In this document: piece after piece, positions 27,901-62,930 of the stretch
How the letters are laid out: each line of letters starts with the position of its first letter
Numbering within the stretch: position 1 is the first letter of the stretch
DNA from: Sipunculus nudus
Lineage: Eukaryota > Annelida > Sipuncula > Golfingiida > Sipunculidae
Direction: 5' to 3'
Length of the DNA stretch: 64,000 nucleotides
Assembly (NCBI GenBank): GCA_026874595.1
Contig: CM049315.1
Coordinates: forward strand, 74,970,401-75,034,400
Translations under genes and position numbers: made by a program
The notes under the pieces: model-generated
The model's input: only the letters and a program-made list of their open reading frames with translations
The model's database searches: none
What the model was told of the DNA's origin: nothing

Positions 27901-27925
27901 CTGAAACAAAGATAAATCAAAGATA
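27901..27925 (-). promoter_or_regulatory. splice acceptor just before the TLR start codon
   Basis: On the minus strand the pyrimidine-rich TTTATCTTTGTTTCAG abuts the ATG at 27900. This implies a 5' untranslated exon further upstream and a single large coding exon, which is common in TLR genes. The upstream exon was not identified. Confidence 0.55.
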
Positions 27926-27929
27926 ATAC

Positions 27930-28281
27930 TTAGATATGACAAGTAATAATTATTTTCATGTTCTATGAGATTTGAATTCTCCGACATAAATTAAATAGGT
28001 TCCAAGAGCGGGCTCAGTTCGGGGTTCTTATATATCCGTGACATATAGAATAATCATTAGCTGCAACAGCTAACATAAGATCACGGGACAGTTTGTATAA
28101 AGTACTGTTTCACCGTTTAGGGTTCACATGGGGATTATTAATTCCAGGTTGGACTCATTTCGCGACAGTGAAAGACTGTGTACGAAATATCTTAGTATGA
28201 TAATATCCAAAAAAGTAAACCGATATTTTGTTTATGTGCATGAGAGAGAGAGAAAGAAAGAGAGAGAGAGTGAGAGAGAGA

Positions 28282-39160: not shown

Positions 39161-39166
39161 TTTATT
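39161..39166 (-). terminator. polyadenylation signal of the galaxin-like gene
   Basis: TTTATT on the plus strand is AATAAA on the coding strand, 30 bases past the TAG stop at 39196. A near-perfect position for a short 3' UTR. Confidence 0.6.
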
Positions 39167-39195: not shown

Positions 39196-42053
39196 TTATT
39201 TGCTTCCCCGTTGACACTTGTTCTTACGTATAATTCTGAGGCAACACATTAGTTCCTGCATGTCGTCGAAATCAAGCCTGCAACACTTGGCGATAGACAG
39301 AGGTCTCTTGCTGCCCCGATTGCCACAGCACGTGTGGCTTTGGCCGTTAATGACGTCACTTCCGCAACATCTGCTGTCCGCGTTTTGTTTGTTGTGTAGA
39401 CGGTCTCTGCAACATAGCTGATACGTGGGGTTAAACGGAAGTCCTCGGCAAGTCCTGTCTCGATTGTCAGGAAGATCCATCCCTGTGTTCAGAGTTGTCA
39501 AAAGTTGCCCCCGGAAACAGAAATGCATATTAGGGTCAAAGGTACCACATGCGCTTGCCCCTGTGTTGATAATCCTGCCGTTCTGACAAGCCTGCGAGAC
39601 GATATCATAGGGAGCAGAGTTACAGCACCTCGTATTCACGTCTCTTGGGAACAGCCGGCCCCCGCAACAAATCTGTGTTGTTTGATCGTAAACACCACAT
39701 GAGCCAACGGTTGTTCCGGTGGGGTAGCCCTGATTATAACCAGATCCACTGCAACACTGTGCTGATCCGTATTGCGAGCAAACCTTGTTTCCACAGCACG
39801 TATACATGAGAGGATCGTACGAGGTTGTCCCACAACACTGAGTGTTTGATCCGTAACGTGTGCAAACCGAGCCCCCGCAGCAGGTATTCCTTGTGGGATC
39901 GTAGGAATTTGTCCCACAGCACTGTGTGTTGGATCCGTATAGAGAACAAACAGTGTCAGCGCAGCACGTGTTCCTTGTGGGATCATAGGATGATGTCCCA
40001 CAACACATGGTGTTTGATCCATAACGCGTGCTGACAGTGTTTCCACAACACATCTGATTCGTTGGGTTGTATTGGTGACCCCCACAGAGTTGAATAACTT
40101 CTCCGTTATAACACATACTGTACGCTGGATCGTAGGATGAAGTCCCACAGCATTGGGTATTTGATCCGTGAAGTGAACATACAGTGTCAGCACAGCATGT
40201 GTTCCTTGTAGGATCGTAGGATAATGTCCCGCAACACATGGTGTTTGATCCATAACGCGTGCTGACAGTGTTTCCACAGCACATTTGATTTACTGGATTG
40301 TACTGATGACCTCCACAGGCCTGGACCACTTGGTTGTTATGACACATGCTGTACGCCGGATCGTAGGATGATTCTCCACAACACTGAGTGTTTGATCCGT
40401 AAAGAGAACATATATTGTTACCGCAGCAAGTGTTCCTGGTCGGATCGTACGAGGATGTCCCACAACACTTAGAATTTTGTTCATAACGTGTGCATACAGT
40501 GTTTTCACAACACATTTGACTTGCTGGATTGTACTGATGACCGCCACAGGCTTGGACCACCTGGTTGTTATAACACATGTTGTACGCCGGATCGTAGGAT
40601 GAAGATCCACAGCACTGTGTGTTCGACCCGTAAAGGTTGCACACTGTGTTTCCACAGCAAGTGTTCCTGGTCGGATCGTAAGAAGATGTCCCACAACATC
40701 TGGTGTTGGATCCATGCAGGGGACAAATCGTATTTCCACAACAAGTCTGCGTCGTGGGGTTGTACTGGTTGCCCGCACACAGGTCTATCAGCTGTCTGTC
40801 ATAACACATCTGACGCGTGTTATCGTAAATACCAACCCCATCACAACATCTTATGGACCCTGAGAGCGCGTATTGGGTGCCCATGCAACAGGAATGCGTG
40901 CGGGAGTCGTAATAAGTCGTTCCACATGGTCTCATATAATTCTGAGTGACGACGCCACCTACACAGGTACTCGTGCTTGGATTATAAAGAATGGTTCCGC
41001 AACAGTCTGTGAGTCCTCCAGTCATGGTGCGGATGACGCCATTGCAACATGTCTCGGTGTTCGGATTATAGGGCGTTGATCCACATAACATCGTCGTCTG
41101 ACCACCAGAACAAGGGTAGTTTCCACAGCACGCCCTAACCTCTGCACTGATCTGGTATGGGACATTTCCGCAGCATATCTGAGTGGCCGGATCGTATGTC
41201 ACTGACCCACAGAGTAGGTTGTTCAACACTGGACATGTTGTAGTACCAGCAGGGGGAGTGTATGGGGCGCCTCCACAACAAAGCTGGGATAGTGGATTGT
41301 AATATGTTGATCCGCACGGATGTTGTAAGTTGGAAGGGTCGGGGCAGATGGTTAGGCTATCTCGCTTCGTGATTACAAAACCATCACAACAAAGTTGTGT
41401 AGCGGGGTTGTAAGTGGCGGATCCGCAGTTTACCAGGTTAGTTCCAACAGGACACGAAGTCATACCATCTCGCTTTGGGATCAGGACACCATCGCAGCAA
41501 AGCTCGACGTTTGGGTTATAGGTACGGGCCCCGCAGCGGAGTTCGAACCCCATGTTGATGCATGGCCTTGGGCCACAACATGTCGCATTGCTTCTCATCT
41601 TGTAAAATATAGTACCTTCACAGCAAAGTTGGAGACACTGGTTGAACGAACGGCCACCACAGAGACCCGTACCCTGGAGAACAAGGCTACTCGGCTGGCC
41701 GCCCATACATGAACACATGTCACCATCGTAGACGACCCCGCCGCAGCATATTGGGTTGGTACCGATCCTATTCTGGACCATGTTTCCACAACACATGTGA
41801 GTAGATGGATCATAGGTTTGCGAATTGCATTCTGGGAAGTAAGACCTACCACTGATACGATAAAGCAGGTTGTCCCTGCAGCGGTACACGTTCCGGTCGT
41901 ATGTGGCTTGGCCGCAACACTGAGTGGAGGACGTGGCGTCGTAGACACTGGTGCCGCAGCATCGTGGGTCCTGCCCGGTCCTCTGACGAACCACGCCGTC
42001 ACAACAGAGAGCTACCGCAGTGTCGTACTGTCTTTGGTTGCACGTGGCTATGT
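39196..42053 (-). CDS. galaxin-like protein, main exon (952 codons)
   Basis: Secreted di-cysteine repeat protein of the galaxin type, a family known from coral skeleton matrix and also found in molluscs and other animals. A single 2858-base exon encodes dozens of CC-G...YDP/YNP units (e.g. CCGTSSYDPTRNTCCGN, CGGHQYNPTNQMCC). The middle part (about 39830-40790) is a higher-order repeat of 77 residues present about four times. The protein ends with a basic, Cys-containing tail (CCLRIIRKNKCQRGSK). The exon starts at an acceptor (CCATTTGTTTTGCAG at 42054-42068) in phase 1. Joining to exon 1 gives 979 residues with an intact frame. The apparent upstream Met at 42096 is intronic. Probable role: extracellular matrix, shell, tube or adhesive material, with cysteine cross-linking. 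That role is inferred from the family. Confidence 0.85.
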
Positions 42054-44988
42054 CTGCAAAACAAATGGTACAAATGATACATGATCCATGCACCACTTTA
42101 CGAGTTAAGTCATCCAGAATTAAACGATTTTGTTCAAGGGTACAATGCCTAGAAGAAACGATACGTCAAGAAATAAATGATTGCAAAGCGCAACAGAAGT
42201 CGGCCATCAAAAATCTAATGGATTGGGTGAAACAGATCAAGAAGGGGCTAGTGAAGTGGCAAAAGGGAACCTTAAAAGAATTGTGATAAACTACAGAGTG
42301 TTGTGTCATTACACATGAAATACGTTTTCTATGGAATTTCTAGTGAGTTGTACGTAAACAATCTGGCCTGGAGGCTTTTTAAACAAACAGCATATAAAAA
42401 TGTTAAGCATAAGGGGAATGTTGCAATAACATTATACTGGACTTTGTAGCCGAGTATCTTGCCTAAATATTATTGTTACATTTGTAACGTCATAATGGTT
42501 TTTAAAGTGGCACCGATGCCGCTGTGCTTAATTCGTCTACATGACTGGAGTCACCTTTTAAACACATCCCAAAAGGATAAGGGTTATCACATTGAATTTA
42601 GGAGAAAGGGGTTTCGGAATCCCACAAATGTGATTACATGTATTTACAATTGAATATGTGAATGCATAACATGTTTGAGGTGAAGTTATTTTGTATTTCC
42701 GATAACCTAAAACAATTGATATTCATCAAAATTTCTCAGTATGCTAAGTACGTTAGTCGTGGACTGTTTAATGTGAGAGGGTCAAAATGGGGCACATTGG
42801 TGTCAGCAGTGGGTTCTTCATGGTATTAATTATATACAAGAATCTTGGTAGCATCTTCATGCAACCAAGTCTGTAGCTACGCTTTCACAGACTGATTCAA
42901 CGACCCGCCCTCTTGTCTATTTGATGAAGAATTCGATATCTTCATTCTAAGGAATACAAGCCTCCGCCATGTGTGTGTGTCGGGTGGGGGGGGGCTATTA
43001 TCGGATATTGCATATATTTTATGGCTCATTAGGAAATTAACTCAATAAATTACAAATAGATAACTTTAGATATGGGCGACAGATGAAAAAGCAGTGATAG
43101 AGCAGAGAACAAACCATACATTATACCTAGAGAAACTGACAAGAAATTTAATACGATGCCCTGAAGGCTGTATAATTATCTTGGCTAAGAACATCGTGGT
43201 TTTAAGTTGTCGGAACAGGGACAAGTACGTCGTCAGAACATTATGATCTAATATTGAGAAACGTATCAGGCAACGGGTGCATTCACGGTAAGCCTTTGAA
43301 GGTCAGTTCTACCATTTCAAGCGTATTTGACTGTTGTATATGTAAATATAGTTTACTGTGGTTCGCAGAGAGCGTGTTTGAGAGCAGACGCTGCTTCACC
43401 CATCCGGGGATTATCGATTGTGATAACAAGTGTTTAAGCATTACGGATCAGATAACACAGTTCGCATCATGAAAGGACAGATCCTGTGTCCGCGTATATA
43501 AGCTAAGATTACAAAGGCACGAAATGCGGCATGCGGCATGTGGAATGCGTGTAGGGAGTTTTCATATGTAATGGCATGGCAACATACATATTCTCTCTAT
43601 GTCGCCATGTAGACCCGGCAGCGTATTAAGCTTAGATTACATAAGCACGAAATGCGGCTTGCGGAATGTGTGTTGAGAGTTTTCATATGTAATTGCATGG
43701 CAACCTGCATATTTTCTCTGTGTAGCCATGTGGAGCCGGCAAAATTCGATTCATTACTTGATTAGCCAATATCGATTTTTATCGGCTTTCCACATGCCGG
43801 ATCCGCATCCCGTGCATGTTGAATCTGAGCAGCGCAGAGGTGTGAGGTGACGCTTTTTTCATATACCAATATATTTATATCATAGGAGCTAACCGCCTAT
43901 ATAACCCCCCCCCCCCGCCCTTTTTCCGGACTTGGCCCGGGGGTTCTTGTTTTAGGTTATATCCTTAGCCCTTGTTGGTTGGACCACTACTTTTCCTAAA
44001 TCCTGCATCCGCCCCTGACGCTTTATTTATAAACAGGTGAGTTGTTCACTGATTGTTACAACGACAATACAAATGTGGTGGCAGCGGTGATAGTGCACGG
44101 GATCTGTCGCGCCCAGGCTGGTCTAGCCGAAGTTAAGGACCTTTTAAAGTCAATTGAAATGCAAGAAAAATATTGAAATAAAATGGATTTCTTCATTATT
44201 TTTTTTTTAATTTTCAGGTATCGAAAGATTTATATGAAAATTTAGTTGTAATTACGTCCAAAAGGGGTTAAACATCAGGCTTTTTAGTCGAAGTTAAAGA
44301 GAATTTAGCTTCCAAGCTTGATCACGCTACAGACATTTCAACCGTTGTAGCTGCCATTGCGGCCATATTTAGAATTAATTAATGACGTAAAGCCTCTAAT
44401 GGCGACGACCAAGACTTTACCTGGGTCAGATACACCTACGTTCTCTGAAAGTTATTATAATTCAAATATTATCTGATAAATTGTCAAAACCTAGAAGGAC
44501 GAAACTTCGATAAATATTGTCTTTGTGCCACATGCAAAATGAAATCTTTGTTTTTTTATTAATGAATTAACTGCTTCGAGAGTAACTAAATGTTTGACAG
44601 AAATTAAATATGTGTAGGCAGAGAACTTTATATCAAATTCTTTACTTAAGGCCGTGAACATTGAATCAATACAAATGTTTTAAATATATTTAAATCTGTA
44701 TACAGTACGTTAATTTTTTTTTTTTTCAAACGGCACGAAGCATTTCGCCTCTATCAATTATGTGTGTATATACGCATTTTGCCTATACATTTTGTGCGTT
44801 TGTATTAAATAAGCTTGGTTATACACTGTCCATATGAGATATTCCGAATGACTATTTCCATTATAATTACAAATATACACTAACGATGTTCATCAGATAT
44901 ATGGATGTATTAAAACTAAAATGGCAAACCTCGGGTAAGTAGTTGGCCACAAAACACATAAAAATACCTGTGTTTAAGAAGTAAATAC
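42054..44988 (-). other. intron 1 of the galaxin-like gene, proximal part
   Basis: Lies between main exon and the duplicated segment. It holds a family-1 repeat terminus (CATTCTAAGGAATACAAGCC, 42943-42962) followed by a G run (42986-42994), a 125-base direct repeat (43497-43740) and a C run (43906-43916). No other exon was recognised. Confidence 0.55.
43497..43740. repeat. direct tandem duplication, ~125 bp unit
   Basis: 43497-43618 and 43625-43740 share GATTACA, GCACGAAATGCGGC, GAGTTTTCATATGTAAT, GCATGGCAAC and CATGT…CCGGCA in the same order. Diverged two-unit tandem copy, non-coding. Confidence 0.7.
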
Positions 44989-47439
44989 ATTTCTCATGCA
45001 TTCTTCTATTACCGTGAGGTGACCGTGATAGAATAAATGTGAACAATGTAGCTATATAGCAAAATAAAATAATGATTTTTTTTCTGTATCTTGTCGATGA
45101 TGAGTTTTTCTAATTCAATTGAGATACGTTCCTTTGTAAATTGCTGCTTTTATTTCCATTTGCCATTGTGTGTTACAAGACACTTAAGAACGCCACCACC
45201 TTAGTCATCAGTTACAATAGCTATTTGCACAATCCATGCGACATAAATATTGTTTATAAACGATATTGATTTTTTTAAATAACAGCAAATAACAAAGAAT
45301 CGGTGTTAAAACACAGTCAACCTAAAATATGTTTTTACTTAATTATAATATTGGATTATATTAATATTTTTAAGTCCTTTATGAAATATTTAAATTTTCT
45401 TTCAATTACCTATCACAGTGGTATGATCAGGTTTATTTATTTCATTATTTCCTCTTTCTATTTCTAATATACCCCAACCAATGGACAAAGCCAACACACA
45501 GGAACGCTTGTGATGCGAGCGTCAAGATCCAAAGGTCTGAAAAGTCGCTGCTGAATACTAATTCATTCAGGAGCATAACAGACGAACACGTCACTGGTCA
45601 CCACGCGCATCAAGCGTCACTCGTCAATAATCGCCCTGCGAGCAATTTTGGACGCGTGACGCGCTTGCCGCGTGGGAACTGATGCTTATAACATAACTTC
45701 TGTGGGTTTTCCTCACAGGCTTTTGTTCACGTAACGGACATTCAAGATTTCACTGCTTATAAAAATTTGTAATAATTTATATAACAATTATTATATATAT
45801 ACAAGGCAAACTTTATTCGGTAAAGGGTATCTATAATACATTTCACAAAAATATGTAATTTTTCATGCGAAGCCCAACTATTCATTTATTTTCTAAATTC
45901 AGCTCATAATATACCATTTCATTCAGTGCAAATGGGGCCCAGGGCTGTGAGGATCGAATTTAATAGAACTGGTCACGAGGAACAAACCCTCCTCTTATTT
46001 TCCCCCGAAGAAAACAGGACATCGCTGAAACTTTGATAATAAAAATGAGGAGGTATTTCCAAATGTGATCCCAAAGCCAAAGCGTCCCATTGGAAGCTTT
46101 TACCCCCAGAACCGAGCGTCCAAAAGTGATTTCAAACCTCATGCTTGTGAGTTCGTGAAACCCCTCTATACGTATAACACAACGATGCAACTCAATTTAG
46201 AAAGTAAAATCTAGGGCTAGTGCGTTTGGCAGTCCCATCAATGTTGTGTTCCTGAACTTTAGATTTGTGCTAGTACACATACTTTAGGTTAGGTACAAAC
46301 ATGGCTGTTTAAAGTTACGAATAAAGAAAAATTAATGTTTTATTTCTTTGGCAGCTCAGGTTGAGAATTCTGAGGAGAATTATGGAGCCAGGCGCAGAAG
46401 CCCTCTTACCCTATATATTTTAATTCCCCACAGCACTCACGCCCTCAACAAATATTCAAATAAAAAATAACAAATATGGTCATAATAGGTAAATAGAGAT
46501 GTCTATAGGGGTATTTTCGTACTTCCGAAACATACAAACACTTTTACAAGACTTCATGTTCATTCTCAGGAATTTTCGCTTTAACAGACTCGTTATTCAA
46601 TTCCGTGAATTCAAATCTTGTCCTCTCTCAGAAAAAATGTTGAAACGCACAGACCAGGTAAAGCTAAATCGTTTACGTTTATAAACCTTTTATATCCCTT
46701 ACGCAATTTAACATGAAATATTTATTTTTTTATTCTTGCTGAATGAGCTAAATCCTGTTGAAAATATTGTAAAAATAAATATGGACTGTTTCTAATGGAT
46801 CAACATTTCTGTATGAATTAGGTGACGGTCGACTCCATGTCATTAAAACCATGCCATGTCATTAAAGCTACGACTTCACGTAGGAAATATCAGAGAAGCG
46901 ATATAATAAATAACGTCTGTAAATGCAATTTCAGTTTTATATATATGGTGTCATTATAACTGTCTGTTTTCTTAATGAAGTTTTAAATTTTTCCTCAGTA
47001 TTACAGCCCAGATTAAATTTGTATCACATTCTCTCAATATTTTGAAAGTTTACAATTTCTAAACTTTTGTTGGATGCATTTTTTTTTACAAAGCTTCGGC
47101 AGTTTCAATTTAATAATACAGTATGTTTCTATTATATTTAAATAAAATAATAAAATAGATCATTTATAGTGTTATGTCTGGTAATCCATCTAACTTTGAC
47201 ATATACAACATTTAATAAAATTTGAAGTAATTCATTAAAAAAAAATGTTCACCATAAATTGTTAATAAATTCTTGTTGGCAGATGTGGAAATATGACCTG
47301 CATTAAAAAAAAACTATATACTCGCTCTGAAATTACGTCGTGAAACCTTAAACAAACTTGAAAACTTGAAACTGTGGTTCATTTGAGATGCGACAACAGA
47401 TCAGAATATTGTATAACATTGATGAATGTTTTGACTTAC

Positions 47440-47521
47440 TCTGAGCCGAAGCCAGCTGTAGCCAAGGCTCCGACAGCACAGTCACTATCAGAAGTAGCTT
47501 CATCGTCATCCCAGAATGCAT
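47440..47521 (-). CDS. galaxin-like gene, exon 1A (signal peptide)
   Basis: Encodes MHSGMTMKLLLIVTVLSEP then WLQLASAQ: a basic start, hydrophobic core and an Ala-Ser-Ala site, i.e. a secretion signal. An upstream in-frame Met also exists at 47536. The exon ends CTCAGA followed by GTAAGT, a consensus donor in phase 1. It fits the phase 1 acceptor of the main exon and restores Asn at the junction with frame maintained. The main exon alone has no signal peptide, which supports the join. The intron would be about 5.4 kb. Confidence 0.7.
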
Positions 47522-47557
47522 CAGCGAAAATGACATCGGTCGAATGGGTTTTAGGCA

Positions 47558-47563
47558 GTTATA
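47558..47563 (-). promoter_or_regulatory. TATA-like box upstream of exon 1A
   Basis: TATAAC on the coding strand about 37 bases before the ATG at 47521, within TTGCTATAACTGCC. It is kept in unit B (52026-52031), with a GC-rich patch just upstream in both. Spacing would leave a very short leader; weak evidence. Confidence 0.3.
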
Positions 47564-47888
47564 GCAACAAGTGCACGTGCAGTCAGTGACGCGTGACCCC
47601 CGCCCTCTCTCATCTCAAGCTGTAGCAACCTAAAATTGTTTCTTCACAGGAAACTCCTCCTGCCCGGAAAGGCACACTTAGATAAGTAAATAAGCAACAT
47701 TGGCCCAACATTTTTCCAGGAGTCGCAATTTGTTTCAAAATTGACATGAATCTGCTAATTTTCCCTCACTTTGAGTAACTATACCTTGTCATGGTGTCAT
47801 GGCACCAGGTCTTGGCAGGTACACCCATCCTGAAGGAAATATTAACGCCAATTACTCGTTATTTTTTATTCAAAAACATCGTGGGCAG

Positions 47889-47890
<2 letters not shown>

Positions 47891-47935
<45 letters not shown>
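47891..47935. repeat. (TA)n microsatellite in unit A
   Basis: About 22 TA units; the counterpart in unit B is at 52377-52434. Confidence 0.95.
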
Positions 47936-47939
<4 letters not shown>

Positions 47940-48084
47940 TCGATGACCCTACACCCATGGGTTGCTTTGTTTATGAAGAGCTGCATGTAAATTTCTACAC
48001 AGTATGTGTGTGGTATTAAATATATTGACAAATAAAGTAAATATAATCAAGCAGATTTCTTTTTGTATTACTATCATTGATGTT

Positions 48085-48120
48085 ATTTTATTATTATTAT
48101 TATTAAATTATTATTATTGA

Positions 48121-48156
<36 letters not shown>
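48085..48156. repeat. (TTA)n microsatellite in unit A
   Basis: Interrupted TTA repeat; the counterpart in unit B is at about 52585-52625. Confidence 0.9.
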
Positions 48157-48861
48157 CATGTTAAACTCACAAAATATTATTGATAATATTAAAAATAAAT
48201 ATTGATAATCAATCAGAATCATTGAGGTCCTAAATAGCATTTATTAAGTGTTTTGATTTTTTTTATATATACCATTGGTATATGGTGTTAATCTATTGGT
48301 ATTACACTTACTCTATTTGGAAAAAAATCAAATTATTATATGTGGAAGAAGGATTTATAAGCAATAAGGATTTGTTTTAAATACTGTGTAGCGGAGTTCT
48401 AAGAAAATCGATCTCATGACGCAGCACTGTCGTATACGCGTAGGTGAACATAACTACATACATACTGAAAGTTATCAGTAAACGTATAAATAAAAGACAA
48501 CGAAACGTCAGAAAAATGCCACTGGAACTATAGTAAACCAATTTCATCAATACGGCGTTTTGTGATCCTATAGGCTTTCATTATCATATATATCTCATTA
48601 TCTTTAATTTTACGACATCGCTCAGCAGACGTCAGTGATCATTCCCGACATAATCAGAGAGGACTTCATCTGAGCGCCAAGCACGGAATACCGCGTCGTC
48701 TGTCGTCTGCCGCTCATCAAAGCAATCATATCAATTTCTTCTCGGATACGCTCTGTACTTACTAATTTTTCCTGCAGTTTTGAAGAATTATAAAAGAATT
48801 ATTCCCCAAACTATTAACTGTGACTGGCACGGAACAGATAATATCAGTAATATTATGGAGA

Positions 48862-48863
<2 letters not shown>

Positions 48864-48898
<35 letters not shown>

Positions 48899-48966
48899 AA
48901 ATATTTATGTGTGTATATATGTATATATATATATGTATATATATATCTATATTCAGTATATATGTG

Positions 48967-48999
<33 letters not shown>

Positions 49000-49010
49000 A
49001 TATATATATG
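48864..49010. repeat. long interrupted (TA)n in unit A
   Basis: TA runs interrupted by GTGTG and TTTATG; the counterpart in unit B is 59514-59685. Open frames of Ile-Tyr repeats here are artefacts. Confidence 0.95.
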
Positions 49011-49983
49011 CGATGATTGCAATTAAGTCCGACGTTCTAGCATTATAAAAATAATCTTAAAACATTACCGGGATATGAAGAACATTTGATATCATTTCTT
49101 GGTAGTAACGCCAAAATAGCCTATATAGGTTTGATAAAATATCATAACTATCTTTAGCTAACTGCAAGTGTGAAACAGAGTAAATTACATTTCTCATGCA
49201 TTCTTCTACTAAAGAGGTGACCGTGATAGAATAAATATGAACAATGTAGCTATATAGCAAAATAAAATAATGATTTTTTTCTGTATCTTGTCGATGATAA
49301 GTTTTTCTAATTTAATTGAAATACGTTCCTTTGTAAATTGCTGCTTTTACTTTCATTTGCCATTGTGTGTTACAAGACACTTAAGAACGCCACCACCTTA
49401 GTCATCAGTTACAATAGCTATTTGCACAATCCATGCGACATAAATATTGTTTATAAACGATATTGATTTTTTTTTTAAATAACAGCAAATAACAAAGAAT
49501 CGGTGTTAAAACACAGTCAACCTAAAATGTGTTTTTACTTAATTATAATATTGTATTATATTAATATTTTTAAGTCCTTTATGAAATATTTAAATTTTTC
49601 TTTCAATTACCTATCACAGTGGTATGATCAGGTTGATTTATTTAATTATTTCCTCTTTCTATTTCTAATATACCCCAACAAATGGACAAGGCCAACACAC
49701 AGGAACGCTTGTGATGCGAGCGTCAAGATCCAAAGGTCTGAAAAGTCGCTGCTGAATACTAATTCATTCGGGAGCATAACAGACGAACACGTCACTGGTC
49801 ACCACGCGCGTCAAGCGTCACTCGTCAATAATCGCCCCGTAAGCAATTTTGGACGCGTGACGCGCTTGCCGCGTGGGAACTGATGCTTATGACATAACTT
49901 CTGTGGGTTTTCCTCACAGGCTTTTGTTCACTGAACGGACATTCAAGATTACACTGCTTATAAAAATTTGTAATAATTTATAT

Positions 49984-50015
49984 AACAATAATTATATATA
50001 TAAATTATATATATA

Positions 50016-50085
<70 letters not shown>

Positions 50086-50100
50086 CAGAGACAGAGAGAC
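49984..50100. repeat. (TA)n-(GA)n compound microsatellite, partly duplicated
   Basis: TA runs followed by GA/CAGA runs. A shorter second copy (50158-50235) follows a repeat of the upstream 60 bases, so the whole block was duplicated locally in unit B. Confidence 0.9.
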
Positions 50101-51907
50101 AGGCAGACATTCAAGATTACACTGCTTATAATAATTTGTAATAATTTATATAACAATAATTATATATATAAATTGTATAAATATATATATATATATAGAG
50201 AGAGAGACAGAGAGAGACAGAGACAGAGAGGCAGACAGAAAACGCTCAACAAAGCGACATAAATGTATCAATATCATTTATAATAGTGAAAGTATCCTGT
50301 CATATTTTAAACTTGTTTACCCACAAACAGAAACGTAATTGTAAAGCTAATCATCAAGATTACTATTTGTAAGGTTAACCAAACATGCATTGGTTAATAT
50401 CATGTCGTGTGCGCTGTGGCCGCGTTTAAGTGTTTTGAATTTGTCGCGAGCCGCGCGTGCCGTAGGTTCGAAGCTTGACGCTCGCATCGGTCTGCTTTGG
50501 GCTTTAGCAGCACGATTCCATGAGTGGTCAACAAAGTCAATTTTACTCGGTTACACGAACAAATGTAATTTTTCTTGTGAAGGCCAACAATTCATCTTTT
50601 TAAATTTACCTCATAATATATTAATTCATTCAGTGCAATGGGGGCCCAGGCCTGTGAGGGTCGAATTTAATAGAACTGGTCACGCTCGAGGAACAAAACC
50701 TCCCTCTCTCATTTATTTTGAAACTTTGATAATAATAAATATATAATCTCTTATTCATCTTGGAACTTTGATAAGAAAAAATGAAGGGGTGGTATTTCCT
50801 TTGCACAGAACCTGTTGTAAATAACAAATATGGTCATAATATGTATATAGAGGTGTCTATAGTGGTAATTTCGTACTTCTGAAACCAAACACAACATTTT
50901 ATAAAACTGCATGTACTTTCCCAGAAGTTTTTCGCTTTAACAGACTCACTATACTCAATTCCGTGAATCCGAATCTCGTCCTTCTTTCAGAAAAATGATG
51001 AAACACGCAGACCAGGAGAAGCAAAATCGCTTACGTTTATAAACCTTTTCTTTATCCCATAAGCGATTTTACATAAAATATTTATTTTAGAGTACGTCAT
51101 CATAATTAGATAATTATTTTCCATTTCACAAGTTTAGCTTTTTCCGATAGCCTATGTAGGCATCGGATATGTTTTTAAAATTGTAGTAGACCTCATTGAA
51201 AATCAGCACTGGCATAATGAGCTAGGTCCTAATGAAATGTATTGTAATAATAAATATGGACTGTTTCTAATGGATCAACATTTCTGTATGAATCAGGTGA
51301 CAGTCGACTTCATGTCATTTAAACCATAAAGCTACGACATCACGTAGAAAAAAGCAGAGAAGCGATTTAATAATGTTTGTAAATGCCATTTCAGTTCTAC
51401 TTATATGGTGCCATTAACTGTTTGTTTTCTTAATGAAGTTTTAAATACTTCCTCAATATTTCAGTCAGATTAAATTTGTATCACATACTTTTAAATATTT
51501 TGAAAGTTTACAATTTCCAAACTTTTGTTGGATGCATTTTTTTTACAAAGCTTTTGCAGTTTCAATTTAATAATACAGTATGTTTATATTATATTTAAAT
51601 AAAATAATAAAGTAGAAATAAAGAGTTTCTTTGGTCATTTATAGTGTTATGTCTGTTAATCCATCTAACTTTAAAATATACAAAATTTAATCAAATTTGA
51701 AGTAATTTATTAAATAAAATGTTCATCATAAATTGTGAATGAATTCTTGTTGGCAGATGTGAAAATATGACCAGCTTTAAAAAATATATACTCTCTCTGA
51801 AATCACGTCCTGAAACCGTATACAAACTTGAACACTTGAAACTGTGGTTCATTTGAGATGCGACAAAAGAACAGAATATTATATAACAGTGATGTGTGTT
51901 GACTTAC

Positions 51908-51989
51908 TCTGAGCCGAAGCCAGCTGTAGCCAAGGCGCGGACAGCACAGTCACTATCAGTAGTAGCTCCATCGTCATCCCAGAATGCAT
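51908..51989 (-). CDS. galaxin-like gene, alternative exon 1B (signal peptide)
   Basis: A duplicate of exon 1A. It encodes MHSGMTMELLLIVTVLSAP then WLQLASAQ, with the same CTCAGA|GTAAGT donor in phase 1. It differs from 1A by Lys to Glu and Glu to Ala near the start and end of the hydrophobic core. Frame, start codons and donor are all intact, so it could splice to the same main exon. It lies 4.5 kb further upstream. Alternatively it is an unused copy; no second main exon is present in the window. Confidence 0.55.
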
Positions 51990-52372
51990 CAGCGAAATGA
52001 CCTCGGTGGAATGGGTTTAACGGCAGTTATAGCAACAGTTGCGCATGCAGTCAGTGAAGCGTGACCCCTGCTCTCTGATCTCAAGTCGTGCGCGGACCAG
52101 ATTGTTCCTGTACAGGAAACTCCTCCTGCCCGGAACGGCACACTTAGATAAGTAAATAAGCAACAATGACCCATCATTTTTCAAGGAGTCGCAATTTATT
52201 TAAAAATTGACATGAATTTGCTTATTTGCCCTCACTTTGTGTAACCATGCTGTGTAATCGTCAAGTAATCATTGTTTTGACTTAAACGCGCCAGGTCTTT
52301 GCAGGTACACCCATCCTGAAGGAAATAAAAACGCCAATTACTCGTATTTTTATTCACACATATCGTGGGCAG

Positions 52373-52376
<4 letters not shown>

Positions 52377-52433
<57 letters not shown>

Positions 52434-52434
52434 G
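52377..52434. repeat. (TA)n microsatellite in unit B
   Basis: Counterpart of the 47891 repeat, longer. Confidence 0.95.
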
Positions 52435-52597
52435 CACTCGATGACCCTACACCCATGGGTTGCTTTGTTTATGAAGAGCTGCATGTAAATTTCTACACAG
52501 TATGTGTGTGGTATTAGATATATTGACAAATAAAGTAAATATAATCAAGCAGATTTCATTTTTGTATTACTATCATTGATGTTATTTTATTATTATA

Positions 52598-52628
<31 letters not shown>

Positions 52629-52829
52629 GATTTTATCATGTTAAACTCACAAAGAAAAAATAAATATTGATAATCAATCAGAATCATTGAGGTCCTAAAT
52701 AGAATTTATTAAGTGTTTTGATTTTTTAGTTCACTCTGTGAACTTATGCCATGGCGCAGCGTCCGCCGTCCAATGTCCACTGTCACCCGTCCACCGTCTG
52801 TTACCAAATATCTCAACAGCCACAGCAGC

Positions 52830-54050
52830 TACCTTCATGAAACTTTGCAGAATTACTGATCATGGGATGGACATGCAAAAATAAGCTTTTGGTGGCGCCA
52901 CCTGTGTTGACCTACTTTCTGCGGGACAAAATGGTCTTTTCCACTTCTTTCAAGATAAGTCATAAAGTATTGATATTTTGGCCTTCATATCACAGTCAAC
53001 AGTTTCTTAGAGGAAGGGGAATAATTTGAGTATAAATTCAGTCAAGTCATATTCAAGATGGCGTCTCTACGGAACTTCAAATTCTGTCGATCGCAAAATA
53101 TGACAGCTTGATGTGTTTCTATACATGATGTATTGTCTGTTACCAAATATCTTAGGAACTGCGGCAGCCTTCAGTTTCAAATTTCACAGGAATATTGTTA
53201 ATGTGACTACTTAATGATTTTGACCTCCAGGTGGTGCCACCTGTGTTGACCTACTTTCTGCGGGACAAAATGGTCTTTTCCACTTCTTCCAAGATAAGTC
53301 ACAAAGTATTGATATTTTGGCCTTCATATCATAGCCAACAGTTCCTTAGAGAAAGGGGAATAATTTGAGTATAAATTCAGTCAAGTCATTTTCAAGATGG
53401 CGTCACTACGTAACTTCAGATTCTGTCGATCGCAAAATATGACAGCTTGATGTGTTTCTAAACATGATGTATTGTCTGTTACCAAATATCTTAGGAACTG
53501 CTACAGCCTTCAGTTTCAAATTTCACAGGAATATTGATCATGTGACTGCTATATGATTTTGACCTCCAGGTGGCGCCACCTGTGTTGACCTACTTTCTGC
53601 GGGACAAAATGGTCTTTTCCACTTCTTCCAAGATAAGTCAAAAAGTATTGATATTTTGGCCTTCATATCATAGTCAACAGTTCCTTAGAGGAAGGGGAAT
53701 AATCTGAGTATAGATTCATCCAAGTCATTTTCAAGATGGCATCTAATTTAGGAACTGCTGCAGCCTTCAGTTTTAAATTTCACAGGAATATTGAACGTGG
53801 GACTGCCAGATGATTTTGACCTCCAGGTGCGGCCACCTGTGTTGACCTAATTTCTGTGGGATAAAATGGTCCTTTCCACTTCTTCCAAGATAATTCATAA
53901 AGTAATAATATTTTTGCCTTCATATTATAGTCAACAGTTCCTTAGAGGAAGTGAAATAATTTGAGTATAAATTCAGACAATTCATTTTCAAGATGGCGTC
54001 TCTACGGAACTTCAAATTGTGTCGATTGCAAAATTTGACAGCTTGATGTG
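52830..54050. repeat. tandem array, ~340 bp units
   Basis: Shared landmarks GGTGGCGCCACC / CTACTTTCTGCGGGAC / AAGATGGCGTC recur at about 52891, 53230, 53569 and 53826 (one unit shortened), and again at 57738 past the LINE. Highly similar neighbouring units. Non-coding. Confidence 0.85.
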
Positions 54051-54061
54051 TTTCTATACAT

Positions 54062-57000
54062 TTTTTTTTTTCAGCTGAGCGTCATGCCCGATGGGTAGTT
54101 CTTTTTTTTTTTTTTTATTAATCAATAATATATATTCATACTGCAATGGTACATTACAAAAAATATACAAACGCTCATTGGAAAACAAAGTACCTTATGC
54201 AATACAACTCCATTACCAAAATTCTGTTGACCTTCAAATTAGTCATTTTAACCCCCATCCCACCCCTGTAATAGATAAACCAATTCAACTAAATAAATAC
54301 AAATAATGGATTGCTCATGTGTGACTCCTAAACATGACCTGCCCTAAAATACATATTATGCCAACTTCCAGAATAAATTGCTTTAACCAACATCCTCAAA
54401 GTGTTCATGAAAGTATAACTCTGCTCGCATATACATATATATACCAATATACATATATATATAGATATATCACTCTCTATATATATACATACATACATCT
54501 GCATACAAACATACTACATATAAATATTCGTATATGCATGCACGTCCTACTATAGTATAAATTCTAATAAATTTCTGTCTTGAATGTATGGTTGCCATTT
54601 ATTTCTAAAATTATCTACTTTATTATTTTTTTGTGCAATAATATATTCAACTTTTACATATCTCCAAATAAAAAATTGTAACTTCTCTAAAGTTGGATAT
54701 TCTTTGTTATTTCTGCAGATATTTATGAATTGTTTAGCCAGCAAAATTATTAAATTCCTACTCACTGAAGCATTAAATCGCCAAACAATATTACTGATAA
54801 ACATTTATCAAATATTATCTTCTGTTTCCGACCCCATACTTCTAACCCTGACCAGAGATCAGCTACTTTATCACATTCCCAAAATAAATGTAATAAAGTC
54901 TACGGTTCCTTATCACAAAATGTACATAGGTTGGAATCTTTAATTTTCCATTTCCATAACCAATAATTATTGACCAAACAATTGTTCAGGAATTTATATT
55001 GAAATACTTGTGATCTGACATCCATACAAATTTTTACAGGAAGTGAATATATTCTTTCTAAATTAATATCACAGTCTGGACAATATATATGCACTTTTGG
55101 AACATAGGGCCCTTTTTCTAACAACTTGTTTTTAAAAGTAGAATATATTATCTTATTGGAGATCTCTATTACCTGTACAAATTTATCTATGTAAATATAA
55201 AAGTCCAGAGGATTTCCTGAGTTAACCTGCCTGCATACACTTTCTTTTCTTATCATGGAAACAAGAGCATACCACTTCAAGAAATCTATTCCATGTATAC
55301 CTCTATTAGTCCATTGTTTGAAAGGAACAATAGAATTATTAAGAAATAAATCTAATCCTGTAATGATGCCTGCATCTATAAAACATTCCCAGTAGACAGG
55401 TTCTGCAGATAATGTTAACATTTTATTATTCCATATTATTTGTTGTCTTACAGGGACCACTTCAAAGTAATTTGTGCGCAGGATTACATAACTTCTCAGT
55501 ATTTCTTTACAAAAACTAGGAATTTTTAATTTGTTTATTTCATTTGGGTCCATATTACTATTCAATAAAATTTCTATATTTGGACATACTGTTTCAAGAT
55601 AATAATTAAAAAATGCTTTCCAGATTTGACTGTCTGATTTAATGTATCTTTTAATCCATGATATTCTTGAAGTTAATATAATTGATTCAATATGTGGGGC
55701 ATTTTGCTCTCCTTTCTCTAAATCCTGCATTAATCTTGATCTTTTAATTCTCTCTTTTCCTCCACTCCAAATGAAAGAAAATATTAACTTATTAAGTTTT
55801 TTTACAAAAGTCAGGTGGAGCAGTCTCATTTGAAATAAAATACTGGAACTTTGAAATAATAAAAGTTTTAACAATCTGAATTTTTCCTTTCAAAGTCAGA
55901 TTTCTTCCTTTCCAAGTATTGAGTGTATGCTGTGCCTCCTTTAATTTAGAGTAACAGTTTAATTCATCTGCTGCCTTTTTATTATATGAAATATAAATTC
56001 CTAAAAATTTAACAGGGTTATTAGGCCACAGAATTCCCAAGGGTTTTCTTTTGTTCTCTCTGTTACTTCCTACCCACATCCCTTCACACTTATCTTTATT
56101 CATTTGTAGCCCACTATAATTTCAAAATTCTTGCACCATCTTCAAAAATTGTTTTGCTGAATTCACATCCTTAGTAATCCCAACTGTGTCATCTGCGTAT
56201 TGTAGGAGTTTTATATTTTCCTTAGAAATTTTAATTCCTTCTATCTTTTCATTAAGTCTAATTTTTTCTGCCATTATTTCCACAGCTAATATAAATAAAT
56301 ATGGTGAAAGTGGATCTCCCTGTCGCACTCCTCTTAGTACTTTAAAATAACCTGAAGTGTTGCCATTGTTTATTGTGCAACTTTCAATATTTCTATATAA
56401 GATTTTTACCCATTTAATAAAAGAAGAAGGAAGATTAAATTTGTCAAGGACAGAAAACATAAAATTCCATTCTAATGAATCAAAAGCTTTCTCAAAATCA
56501 ATTCCTAATATTATACCTGGAACTTTGTTTTGTTTGGTATATGTTAATATATCTAATAGAGTTCTAATGTTTTCTCCTATATATCTTCCCTGGATGTAAC
56601 CAGTCTGATTACCTTTTATAATATTTGGCATAACTTTCTTCAATCTAAGTGAGAGGGTTTTTGATAATATTTTATAATCTACATTAAGCAATGACAGTGG
56701 TCTCCAATTTTTTAATAGTTTTCTATCTTTCTTTTTATCAATTAAAGTTATAATAGCCTGTTTTTGTGAACTAGTTAATTCCCCTTCTCTAAAAAATTTG
56801 TTAAATGAAGCTACCATTAATGCACCAAATTGTGGCCAAAATTTTTTTATAAAATTCAGCAGTTATTCCATCATTACCTGGACTTTTATTCATAGCAAAG
56901 GTTTTAAGAGTATTATAACATTCATCAACTTTTATTGTTTCATCAAGTATTTCTAATTCTTGTATGGTTGGTGTATTCAGTTTAATCTCTTTCAAATACT

Positions 57001-57623
57001 GTGTTATGTTTTCATCTGATATCTCAGAATGTGAACTGTATAATCTTTTATAATATTCCTTTTGCATGCTTAATAAACTTAAAGAATTTGTGACCATTTC
57101 TCCATCAGTTGACTTAAGTTTCCTAATGCATTTCTGTTGATTATTATATTTTTCTAAATTTAAGAAATATTTCGAGCTCTTTTCACCTTTTTCAAACCAT
57201 CGTGTTTTTGAACGCAAGATACATCCCTCTATTTTTGAATTATCAATTTCTTCCAACTGTAATTTAACTTGATCTATTTCTTGGTTCACCTTTTCTCTTA
57301 TTTCAGCATCTGACTTATCTAATATCTCATATAATTCTTTCAGTTTGGAGTTCAAGTATATATCTTTTAACTTTCTATCTCTCGCCCTTTTTTTACTATA
57401 GGATATAGAATACTGCCTTATTTTATACTTCATTAATTCCCATTTTACTCTTTCATCTGACAATTCTTTAACTTCTTTATCCCACTCAATTTTTGACTTA
57501 ATTAATCCTGAAACATAGTCTGACTCGTCTAATAACTCTGAGTTAAGTTTCCAATATCCTTTTCCTTTTGATCCTGAAACATCTAACTTTTCTATATCTA
57601 AAATTATTGCACAGTGGTCTGAT
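54062..57623 (-). mobile_element. LINE retrotransposon (L1/Tx1-like), 5' truncated
   Basis: Flanked by an exact 11-base target duplication TTTCTATACAT (54051-54061 and 57624-57634) inside the tandem array, whose uninterrupted sequence is seen at 53112 and 53458. The 5' truncation falls in the end of the endonuclease domain (the SDHCAIIL motif opens the element). The 3' end shows two poly-A tracts (poly-T on plus, 54061-54071 and 54102-54116) separated by 30 unique bases, as expected from 3' transduction. Confidence 0.85.
54550..57623 (-). pseudogene. LINE ORF2 (reverse transcriptase), broken
   Basis: A polyprotein remnant in one orientation. The end of the APE endonuclease (SDHCAIIL) and a linker are followed by a reverse transcriptase with DYKILSKTLSLRLKKVMP, GIDFEKAFDSLEWNF, GVRQGDPLSPYLF and the catalytic QYADDT. 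A C-terminal region follows with LNKLIFSFIWSGG and a CTFC...HLFWEC putative zinc knuckle, then a Lys/Asn-rich tail to 54550. Breaks: a frameshift around 56801-56817, a TGA near 56122, a frameshift around 55800-55870 and a TAG at about 54900. Reading resumes in the right frame after each. Few lesions imply a fairly recent insertion. The style fits the L1/Tx1 group; the exact clade needs a tree. Confidence 0.85.
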
Positions 57624-57949
57624 TTTCTATACATGATGTATTGTCTGTTACCAAATATCTTAGGAACTGCTGCAGCCTTCAGTTTCAAAGTTCACAGGAA
57701 TATTGATCATGTGACTGCTTAATGATTTTGATCTCCAGGTGGCGCCACCTGTTTAGCTACTTTCAACAGGCTGTAATGGTGTTTACTGCTTTCATCCAAA
57801 ATATGTCATTAAGTATTTATTTGTTATAATCCACAAAAACAGAGTCCCCTCTAGGACCCTTGGACTGATCTTTCCAAAACCTGGCATACTTGTTCCCTCA
57901 CCTTGTAGTTGTAGGTAACAATGATGGAGAACCTTTCTGTGCAGTACAA

Positions 57950-58800
57950 ACCTGGGTTTCTTTTATATAACAACCCTCAATCTCCGGAGTGGTTCAACAT
58001 ATTTAGCTGAAATGTTGCATATTCATAGATCTTGGACTCCTCCATCTTGTATTCAAGACTGGTGGCGCCATCTGCAATCGTTTTCCCATGGCGTCCTTCG
58101 ATACTTGATGTGGGTGAAAATTGCTCATATCTCAGAAGTGGTTGAAGGTATTGGTCTGAAATTTGGCATGTCTATCCATCTAGGAAAGTTTTCTAGTAAT
58201 ACAAGACACTTGGCACCACCTACCTTCCTGTTTTTATAGAAAACTTAATGCCTTTTTACTGAGGAATGATTTGCTGTATTGACCTGAAATTGCGCATGTC
58301 CATAGATCTTGGACTCCTCAGACTTACACTCAAGACTGATGATGCCATCTGTAATCATTTTCCTGTGGCATCCATCCGTACATTTTCTTTGGGTGAAAAT
58401 TGCTCATATCTCAGGACTGGTTCAATGTATTGGTCTGAAATTTGTCATATCCATCCATCTCGAAAAGTTTTCTTGTAAACCAGACAGGTGGCGCCACCTA
58501 CAATACTTTTTGCGGAGTGTCCAACTTTCCATTTGCCATCTGTTCGTCTTAGTGGTTGTTCAGTGTATTGGGTTGAAATTGTGAATGTCCATAGATTTTC
58601 GTCCCCTCCATCTCGTAAACAAGACTGGTGGCGCCATCTGCAATAATTTTCCTATGGTGTCCATTCATACATTTGCTTTGGGTGAAAATTGCTCATATCT
58701 CAGGAGTATTGGTCTGAAATTTGGCATGTGCAGTCATCTTGGAAAGTTTTCTCATAAACCTGATAGGTGGCGCCACCTACCTTGTGCAATAGGACAATGT
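57950..58800. repeat. tandem array, ~280 bp units
   Basis: Three units marked by GTGAAAATTGCTCATATCTC (58108, 58394, 58681), with GGTGGCGCCACC at 58487 and 58766. Repeated 70-90-codon frames are a by-product of the array. Confidence 0.85.
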
Positions 58801-59513
58801 CTACTTGGAAAGGAATGAATGGTATTTTCACATTCATTTTTTTTTTTTTAATCACATGCCAAATTGCACAGTAATTCACAGAGTGAACATTTGACCCCTG
58901 GGTCTCTTGTTTATATATACATGCCATTGGTATATGGTGTTAATCTATTGGTATTACACTTACTCTATTTGGAAAAAAATCAAATTATTATATGTGGAAG
59001 AAGGATTTATAGGCGATAAGGATTTGTTTTAAATACTGTGAAGCGGAGTACTATGAAAATCGATCTCATGACGCAGCACTGCCATATACGCGCCGGTTTA
59101 CATAACTACATACATACTGAAAGTTATCAGTAAACGTATAATAAAAGACAACGAAACGTCAGAAAAATGCCACTGGAACTATAGTAAACCAGTTTCATCA
59201 ATAAGGCGTTTTGTGATCCTATAGGCTTTCATTATCATATATATCTCATTATCTTTAATTTTACGACATCGCTCAGCAGACGACAGTGATCATTCCCGAC
59301 ATAATCAGAGAGGACTTCATCTGAGCGCCAAGCACGGAATACCGCGTCGTCTGCCGTCTGCCGCTCATCAAAGCAATCATATCAATTTCTTCTCGGATAC
59401 GCTCTGTACTTACTAATTTTTGCTGCAGTTTTGAAGAATTATAAAAGAATTATTCCCCAAACTATTAACTGTGACTGGCAAGGAACAGATAATATCAATA
59501 ATAAACGGAGATG

Positions 59514-59622
59514 CATATATATATATATATATATATATGTGTGTAAATATTTATGTGTGTATATATGTATATATATATATGTATATATATATCTATATTC
59601 AGTATATATGTATATATATATA

Positions 59623-59685
<63 letters not shown>
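59514..59685. repeat. long interrupted (TA)n in unit B
   Basis: Counterpart of 48864-49010, expanded in its last run. Confidence 0.95.
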
Positions 59686-59686
<1 letters not shown>

Positions 59687-59862
59687 ATGGTTGCAATTAA
59701 GTCCGACGTTCTAGCATTATAAAAAACATCTTAAAACATTACCAGGATATGAAGAACATTTAATGTCATTTCTTGGTAGTAACGCCAAAATAGCCTATAT
59801 AGGTTTGATAAAATATAATAAGTATCTTTAGCTAGCTGCAAGTATGAAACAGAGTAAATTAC

Positions 59863-59976
59863 CTTTAAATTCAATATTATATAATTCCCCACTTTAGAAT
59901 TATATTTAGCGTTTATGTTGATAACTTCGGATGCACAACTACCGTAAGCTTATGCAACCTGTCTCTCTCTCTCGTA

Positions 59977-60049
<73 letters not shown>

Positions 60050-60216
60050 TTCAACAGAAAATTAAATAAAACAACTTCATGTTAAGCACTGTTCTAAAAG
60101 AAAAAGGGTAAGGTTTGAATATTCATGAAACACAAAAGTATTAAAGTAATGTTTGGTGTAATTTAGTATAATTAGATACAATCAGTACCAGTTTACCACA
60201 ACATAAACCCATTTAT

Positions 60217-60260
<44 letters not shown>

Positions 60261-61440
60261 CTTTCAATTATAGAATAAACAATGTACACATAGTTCATCT
60301 TGCTTCTAACATTCAAATTCAACCTATTCATATTCATCAAAACACAGAATATGTGAATCTCATGTCTAACGCCAATTTATTACATCTCATTAGATTAGTC
60401 TGTTTTATCTTGAGCTGGTGTTTAATGCACATGACAAACATTAGCTTTTCAAACACTCAGTAAGATTTGTACAAGCCATTGTACTTAGACTGCAATACTG
60501 GTGAGTACAAACCTGGCCTAACTCACCGTCTGTGGCACCACTCATTACCTCATCAGAGGTTATGACTTACAGACCGTCTGCCTCTGAAGTACTCAAACAT
60601 CATCAGCTGCACAATGCAGCACTATTGCAATTAATGTATAGGCCTACTGACCAAGCCTAGAGGATAGTATTTAATGGATCTGCCAACAAGCCCAAAGTAT
60701 ATCTAATTGGTAATCACCTCAAGCCAATGCCCCATGCCCACTGGACCATGACAGCATCAAGCATGAACTAAATACACTACAACTTAAGCCTTTTCCTGTG
60801 TTCCAATATAAATCAAACAAGGCTCCATCCCTAATATGTTTGGTCACGGGTTGTAATAGTTAAAAGGTATTATTCTGTTACTTAGGGTTCAACAACTATT
60901 AAAATTACTTTGAAAACCTGTAAATTTCTATTACTATCACTATTACATATTACCCCATCCCTGATATATATTTGAAACATATGGGGGGGGGGGGATATCC
61001 GACGATCGTAATCAAAACATATCCCAAATCAGACGCGTTTTGCAAATCACAAAACATAACGTTGCTTTACTTGCTTTCACCAACACTAACTAGTAGCATT
61101 TCAGACACGTTTTTCTTTCTTTTTTTTGTCAACATGGGCATGAGTACTGTGTTAACTAACAACTTGTAGATAAACAAGCTCATGCCTCCATCACAGGGGT
61201 GTTTTCAGAACTTTCCTTGTAGGTTAGACGGACGTATTCCCAGGTCCTATATATAATAAAAGAAAGTTTGGGTTTCTGATATCACCGACGACGTCAGTCT
61301 CATTTGACTTTTACACATTACCTGCCTGGTCCGGGCCTGTTCATTCTTGTAGCTTTTCTCGGGTCCCTGGGGAGCATACAACCCAAGCAGCTTATCAGGC
61401 GCTAAAAGTTTATTCGTTCTACATTTGCCTTCCTTCCATT
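59863..61440. repeat. non-coding DNA with (TA)n, (TG)n and (CA)n repeats
   Basis: Upstream of the duplication. It holds (TA)n-(TG)n (59979-60048), (CA)n-(TA)n (60218-60261) and a G run (60983-60993). No gene recognised. Confidence 0.6.
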
Positions 61441-61449
61441 ACCAGTAAC

Positions 61450-61596
61450 CATTCACTCCTGGGTCGAGAGAGCGCCCCCTTGTGGAAAAGACTCTACCTA
61501 GGAGTCTTAGCGCAAACGGCGGTCTGAACTGGATGCGAACACACAACCTTGAAGTTACAAGTCCAGCACCCTAACCATTATGCCACAGCGCTCCAC
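61450..61596 (-). mobile_element. tRNA-derived SINE, family 2, copy 2
   Basis: Same order of words as 20488-20634. Minus-strand start GTGGAGCGCTGTGGCATAATGG, then TGTGTTCGCATCC (a diverged B box), CTAAGACTCCTAGGTAGAG and CCACAAGGGGGCGCTC. The two copies define the family; both are on the minus strand. Confidence 0.75.
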
Positions 61597-61599
61597 TAT

Positions 61600-62930
61600 A
61601 ATGTAAGATGCACATCACTCACCTGCTAAAAAAATGTATGCACCCTCAGATATATTTTTCATTCCTGAAATTTTCTGCTGCCCTGCAATATTTAATGCCT
61701 ACTCACACTTGACGCCACACAATGGGCCGACCTTGACCGGACCCGGAAATAAGTCACTCTGAAGTGCACTTCATGAATACGTGCCCAGACTAATTCCAAT
61801 ACCACATGAAGTATATAAGAAAGGCAGCGACATTGCTGGCTTTAAGAAATGTAACTAATATCGGATAATCCTCAACATTTTATACCAGCCCAACTTTGTT
61901 TTGTACTTTCCTCTACTGTGTATTTTTCTCATTCAAAAACAATTTTAAACATTTTTATTGAATAAATTTTAGTTTTAAGGTAGATAGAGACATGTCAGAG
62001 AAAAAGGCACTTTTAAGATATTGTCATGTAATTTAATATTAGTCCGCAAAAAGTGGCTTGGTGTTACTGGGTGCTTGAAATAGCGTACTGTTTGAAATTA
62101 AAAAAATGAAATGTTGAAAGATTATATGACAATTAATGAAAATGTTTAAAAATATGCATACCAATAGAAAGAACACTGTACAAGATTTAAAAGAATGTCT
62201 ACTTTATGAGTCTAATATAGATTTGAAACAGCTTTTGGACTGATTTCCGATATATGTTATTTTCCCAGCGATGCTACCTTAATTATGCAAATCGGAGGTT
62301 TAAAAAAAAAAATATGGTTTCTTTAACAACAACATCTGTACTGGATCTCCAAGCAGGACCCACATACGAAACTGCCCACGACGGACTTAATTGTAGGGTG
62401 CTGTCCTCTGGATACAAATATTGATATTAATACGTAGTAGATATTTACTGAAGCATAATATTTGGCAACGGAGTTATTTCGCTCTGATGAATCACAGTCC
62501 ATGCATTAAGCCACACCAATAAATAAATAAATAAATGAAATGTTCACCAAAATCATCGCTTCATATTAGGCTGAACATGTTATTATTGCGAATGAGCCCT
62601 ATGCCCTAAAAGTAATGTAGCTTTAATCTCAGTTTCCTCAAAGATAAAGAATTTCTAAGTGTATCAGGAATAATTAAATCAATTTTAAAGTTTTCGTAAT
62701 TCCAATTTTCAAAATTGAATCACACATTCATAGTAATTTTTATTATATGCAGGTTGCAAAATTAACGTTATTTGTCTCAGCAGGCTACTTTTTTTTTATT
62801 TTTGTTGTTTGAGGTAACCGCCTCCATTGTTTAATGCTAGCTTAACTAAGTATATGTACATCTGTAGAATTCTATTCCAGTTTCGGACTCTGTGACAGGG
62901 CGGTAACACACGCTTCCTCACATTTTATAT
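61600..62930. other. AT-rich DNA, no gene recognised
   Basis: Contains a short (TAAA)n run (62519-62536). No motif-bearing frame. Confidence 0.45.

Follow-up and report, generated by a model that had tools for sequence, protein, structure and literature searches.

The window analysed here, a stretch of 64,000 nucleotides of Sipunculus nudus DNA, carries a galaxin-repeat gene on its minus strand. The main (last) coding exon lies at 39196..42053 and encodes 951 residues past a split codon, in a frame that is open from 42165 to the stop codon ending at 39196; an AATAAA polyadenylation signal is found 30 bases past the stop (39161..39166, minus strand). The exon matches the Pfam family Galaxin_repeat (PF24748) in 11 stretches, with an E value of 3.2e-124 and a score of 409 bits (cut-off 28), and it shows the di-cysteine repeats by which galaxins are defined, as evident from 127 cysteines in 951 residues and 43 Cys-Cys pairs. 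A DNA search of the genome (1.43 Gb, 153 contigs) locates it at one place. At 39896-40715, within the exon, a unit of 231 bases (77 codons) recurs ∼3.5 times with ∼81% match, which points to a recent expansion of the galaxin repeats. Elsewhere on the minus strand, a Toll-like receptor-type gene occupies 25364-27990 in two overlapping frames, with leucine-rich repeats at 26260-27990 and a TIR domain at 25364-26278; either this gene is broken, or an intron or an assembly error lies there.

No in-frame ATG is present in the main exon frame from the upstream stop to the acceptor at 42053, and the start has, therefore, to be supplied by another exon. The acceptor is of phase 1 and has a pyrimidine-rich tract (42054..42073, minus strand), reading TTTGTTTTGCAG directly ahead of the AC of the exon. 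Two first exons on the same strand are compatible with it, namely exon 1A at 47440..47521 (MHSGMTMKLLLIVTVLSEPWLQLASAQ plus one base) and exon 1B at 51908..51989 (MHSGMTMELLLIVTVLSAPWLQLASAQ plus one base). Both are 82 bases long and consist of an ATG-initiated run of 27 codons plus one base, ending in a phase 1 donor (A/GTAAGT), the GTAAGT of which lies at 47434..47439 for 1A and at 51902..51907 for 1B. A scripted join of either exon to the main exon yields a single open frame to the stop, the layout being that of two first exons, each with a start, a leader and a donor, facing one acceptor. The initial annotation had described a galaxin-like gene whose main exon lacks a signal peptide, with two signal-peptide-like first exons having identical, phase-compatible donors; the Pfam match, the missing ATG and the two in-frame joins bear this out, and the exon coordinates agree with those given there. 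In the genome search, which is of a kind that can miss matches, the exon 1 stretch is present in exactly two copies (2 matches among 2 candidates), and a third did not turn up.

The leaders encoded by 1A and 1B are signal-peptide-like. A simple scan for hydropathy and for the −3,−1 rule of leader cleavage shows a hydrophobic segment, with small residues where the cut would be expected. The two exons differ at 4 of 82 sites, two of which are silent and two of which give K8E and E18A; the 1B leader has no basic residue ahead of the hydrophobic stretch. When scored against the donor consensus, the donor of both exons reaches 7 of 9, being perfect on the intron side and lacking the usual G before the cut. 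In 17 kb, 49 sites score 7 or more, exon 1 donor included, and since 48 other sites share such a score, the donor by itself proves little. A scan of the window for leader exons (42054-62000) gave 4 rows for 1A, 3 for 1B and 1 for a site at 48465; the last was rejected as a further leader exon, since a gap of one base in the duplicate breaks its frame.

A core-promoter-like pair of motifs, TATAA followed by TCATTT, was located by sequence scan ahead of both exons, at 47528..47563 for 1A and at 51995..52031 for 1B (minus strand). TCATTT, which we take to be a match to the initiator consensus, has its A 32 or 33 bases past the TATAA, and its distance to the ATG is 10 bases in 1A and 9 bases in 1B. 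TATAA and initiator pairs of this kind occur 7 times in the 64 kb, counting both strands, and two of these are the pairs at 1A and 1B. Start sites at the predicted positions, 47531 for 1A and 51998 for 1B, would make the untranslated leader very short, and translation of the transcripts may then use the second or the third in-frame ATG for initiation. The in-frame ATGs were judged by the Kozak consensus; the third has an A at −3 in both exons and a G at +4 in 1B only. An extra in-frame ATG upstream in 1A coincides with the predicted start site and probably falls outside the transcript.

The exon plan was compared with that of the galaxin paralogues, the genome holding at least 97 galaxin-repeat matches, with 150 of 218 candidates scored. 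The protein of the window is 28 to 37% identical to six paralogues in the best aligned parts and is, judged by these values, a distant member of the family. All six paralogue exons read at the DNA level (two on contig C17 and one each on C5, C13, C2 and C16) have a phase 1 acceptor. A convincing leader exon with a phase 1 GTAAGT donor is present in 3 of 10 upstream stretches of 9.9 kb (one on C16 and two on C17); the strict scan gave none or doubtful candidates in the other 7, and strict and relaxed scans gave nothing trustworthy for the paralogues on C5, C13 and C2. Over 99,010 bases the strict scan returned 20 rows in sense (3 judged convincing and 17 low-complexity or doubtful) and 3 in antisense, a noise level at which a single leader-exon candidate is not proof. 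A galaxin paralogue on C5 (L036, L037; G000:C5:5575200-5588700) is interrupted by a stop codon near its start, and a close relative there (L034, L035) has a long frame that is open over 1310 residues.

These results bear on the view that the two first exons belong to another gene, or to other or longer models of this one, for example with small exons between 47440 and 42053. Short exons can indeed escape frame scans, but the direct join gives a perfect frame, the plan of a leader followed by a galaxin body is also found in paralogues, and from the main exon up to 54900 no minus-strand frame reaches 110 residues; such models are, therefore, very improbable.

The origin of the second first exon by a tandem duplication of ∼4.2 kb, as initially proposed, also holds, and the ends of the copies can now be located. 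Comparison of the copies places copy 1, which holds 1A, at about 44981..49190, and copy 2, which holds 1B, at about 49181..52729 for its first part and 58906..59866 for its second part. The two parts are separated by a 6.2 kb insert (52730..58905), which was not distinguished earlier and is recognized from repeats, frames and Pfam matches. About 12 bases, AGTAAAT(T)AC(A/C)TTT, are common to both outer ends of the duplication and to the joint in its middle, which fits a simple tandem duplication via short homology. The start, frame, donor and TATA-like box are retained in both units, as had been claimed, with TATAA plus TCATTT and GTAAGT at each. When the main exon was used as query in a translated search of the window, it was found only at its own place; the idea that copy 2 retains remnants of a second body exon was hence rejected, and the body is not part of the duplication. 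Rejected as well was a transposon in the left block (44980-45801) as the cause of its 96% identity, since the 41 matches to it lie, beyond both copies, in pieces of 180 bases at most.

The insert contains a reverse-transcriptase frame (56122-56862) matching PF00078. Tandem arrays lie at both of its ends, and the inverted-repeat-like GTTCACTCTGTGAAC is found close to both borders. We read it as having come in after the duplication, the alternative being that copy 1 once had this stretch and lost it. Since it starts ∼740 bases upstream of the 1B start, only this length of the common promoter region is undisturbed at 1B, and the insert may have cut 1B off from distant enhancers.

An assembly artefact, in which two divergent haplotypes of one individual were placed in tandem, would also give a second copy, and the 3.4% difference between the outer parts of the copies is comparable in size to the allelic difference in wild marine invertebrates. 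However, the window has no runs of N, the junction is clean with its ∼12 common bases, the upstream and downstream flanks join once each, and the insert is present in one copy only. These observations make such an artefact most improbable.

The divergence between the copies is not uniform. A core of copy 1 (46488..47878), which covers the promoter, exon 1 and the adjoining 1 kb of the intron, differs from copy 2 at 171 of 1359 sites (12.6%), as compared to 62 of 1842 sites (3.4%) outside it, in an alignment without simple repeats and without the unalignable 45790-46465. This split has a likelihood ratio of 98.8, and none of 60 shuffles exceeded 21.5; the real data were searched in steps of 3 columns and the permuted data more coarsely, in steps of 12, a bias that is small next to this difference. 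Directly upstream of TATAA the copies differ at 43 of 235 sites, and on the intron side at 112 of 948. Exon 1 (4/82) is less changed than the surrounding core (155/1183; Fisher p 0.025), and it has no fewer differences than the outer blocks (71/1896; p 0.55). In simulations of neutral change, with indel rates estimated by eye from the copy alignment, 0.27% of 200,000 exons remain whole and carry no more than 4 changes at the core rate, whereas at the outer-block rate 43% look as good as exon 1 and 51% stay intact; as 43% do equally well at the outer rate, intactness alone is weak evidence.

The outer-block values lend themselves to the explanation that only one unit works, and that the other is a recent intact copy, silent or nearly so, which has not yet decayed. 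With outer blocks differing by only 3.4%, a rate at which 51% of exons survive by chance, an idle exon could still be whole. 1B would then be the likelier relic, because it is cut off by the insert ∼740 bases upstream of its start and has the weaker-looking leader, in which Lys8 is changed to Glu. In contrast, the lower change of exon 1 relative to the surrounding core (p 0.025) is not what an idle exon would lead one to expect. The start, donor, TATAA and initiator are, moreover, intact in both units, while an accidental leader-like frame in the duplicated unit is broken in its copy. One working unit is thus a possible explanation, and on balance a rather unlikely one.

Three origins can be proposed for the mosaic: the copies are old and their outer parts have been made alike by conversion, or the duplication is young and brought together two chromosomes whose cores were unlike beforehand, or fast change was confined to the core. 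A donor of the diverged core at another locus is unlikely, as the genome search, which can miss matches, shows neither the exon 1 region nor the adjoining intron side a third time. A search with 45990-47359 as query gave 41 matches, of which the part nearest to exon 1 matches copy 2 only and the rest are short dispersed-repeat pieces, and a donor locus elsewhere was rejected on this account.

The second of the three origins can be put more specifically, the tandem pair being two long-separated regulatory haplotypes brought into cis by unequal exchange between unlike chromosomes. This would account for outer blocks at 3.4% beside a core at 12.6%, for the sharp edges, and for the lack of a third core copy as donor. 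Every gamete with such a chromosome would hold both promoter types, which amounts to fixed heterozygosity of promoter and leader exon. Conservation of exon 1 amid changing DNA, under this origin or under conversion, is as expected if both exons were used during the separation, and with two haplotypes the use of both may predate the duplication. The heterogeneous duplications of mosquito ace-1 are a parallel, in which a tandem duplication holds two diverged versions side by side (PMC5137868, PMC5972224). Those concern whole genes, known alleles and known selection, whereas here promoter and first exon only are involved and the two haplotypes are deduced from the divergence mosaic. We regard this origin as speculative and unlikely.

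The best explanation, to which we assign a probability of about 60%, is a gene of two exons for a putatively secreted galaxin-repeat protein, in which the promoter, the signal-peptide exon and the start of intron 1 have been duplicated in tandem and the body exon has not. Judging from their sequences, 1A and 1B most likely belong to two alternative units, each made up of a promoter and a first exon, that lead to a single mature protein. Each promoter would start its own transcript ∼30 bases after its TATAA; splicing to the common acceptor would span ∼5.4 kb from 1A and ∼9.9 kb from 1B, and transcripts from 1B would lose 1A as part of the intron, since first exons carry no acceptor. The leader would be cut after ...LASA, and its removal at this expected cut would leave an identical mature protein from both forms, placing the difference in expression or secretion rather than in the product. 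The second unit would accordingly alter the amount, place or time of expression of one protein, and a small difference in secretion is possible through the leader substitutions Lys8 to Glu and Glu18 to Ala. Use of 1A is very probable and that of 1B fairly probable, and clearly different expression programmes of the two are conceivable, if somewhat doubtful. The observation in the initial annotation is hence confirmed, and its interpretation, a gain of a second promoter plus first exon giving two expression programmes for one matrix protein, is plausible and only half supported.

In the IgLON genes (Lsamp, Ntm and Opcml of mouse and human), the signal peptide depends on whether promoter 1a or 1b is used, and the N-termini are identical after processing (PMC5288359). 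With two promoters, each with a signal-peptide first exon, on one common body, the IgLON family is the nearest working parallel. The IgLON leaders, however, are distinct and their use has been measured, whereas the leaders here are near-identical and come from a local tandem duplication, in an unrelated protein family. UGT1-type clusters (UGT1, GCNT2, protocadherin) have tandem first exons with their own promoters and common downstream exons (PMC1885805, PMC3325998). The present locus is similar in that its first exons stand in tandem, through duplication, on a common downstream exon. The long first exons of those clusters alter the working part of the protein; here the first exons supply a 27-codon leader only, which should be cut off, and do not diversify the working part of the mature protein, the body exon being common. 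Both alternative signal-peptide first exons and tandem first-exon arrays are, thus, already known.

Galaxins are skeletal in corals and a galaxin-like protein of the squid Euprymna (EsGal1) is antimicrobial (PMC7853314), the mussel galaxin-family protein cysrichin has 163 residues (PMC10045328), and a galaxin homologue appears in a slipper snail shell study (PMC9365450). Coral galaxin, cysrichin and EsGal1 have di-cysteine tandem repeats behind a signal peptide; the protein of the window shares the repeats, behind a putative signal peptide, and is longer than the 163 residues reported for cysrichin. Because galaxin-type proteins are skeletal in corals and antimicrobial in squid, the label of matrix protein given to the product in the initial annotation is a guess. 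Searches of open papers, covering part of the literature only, brought up no doubled first exon in a galaxin gene.

If both units work, the locus would represent a young and well-delimited gain of a second promoter and signal-peptide exon with the mature protein unchanged. The breakpoints, the junction homology, the later insert beside one promoter and the divergence map are all readable here. What most deserves to be followed is the mosaic divergence; should the core mosaic have an allelic origin, two regulatory alleles would have been captured side by side. Two working units would also let one ask how fast a duplicated promoter acquires a pattern of its own, in a family with skeletal and antimicrobial members.
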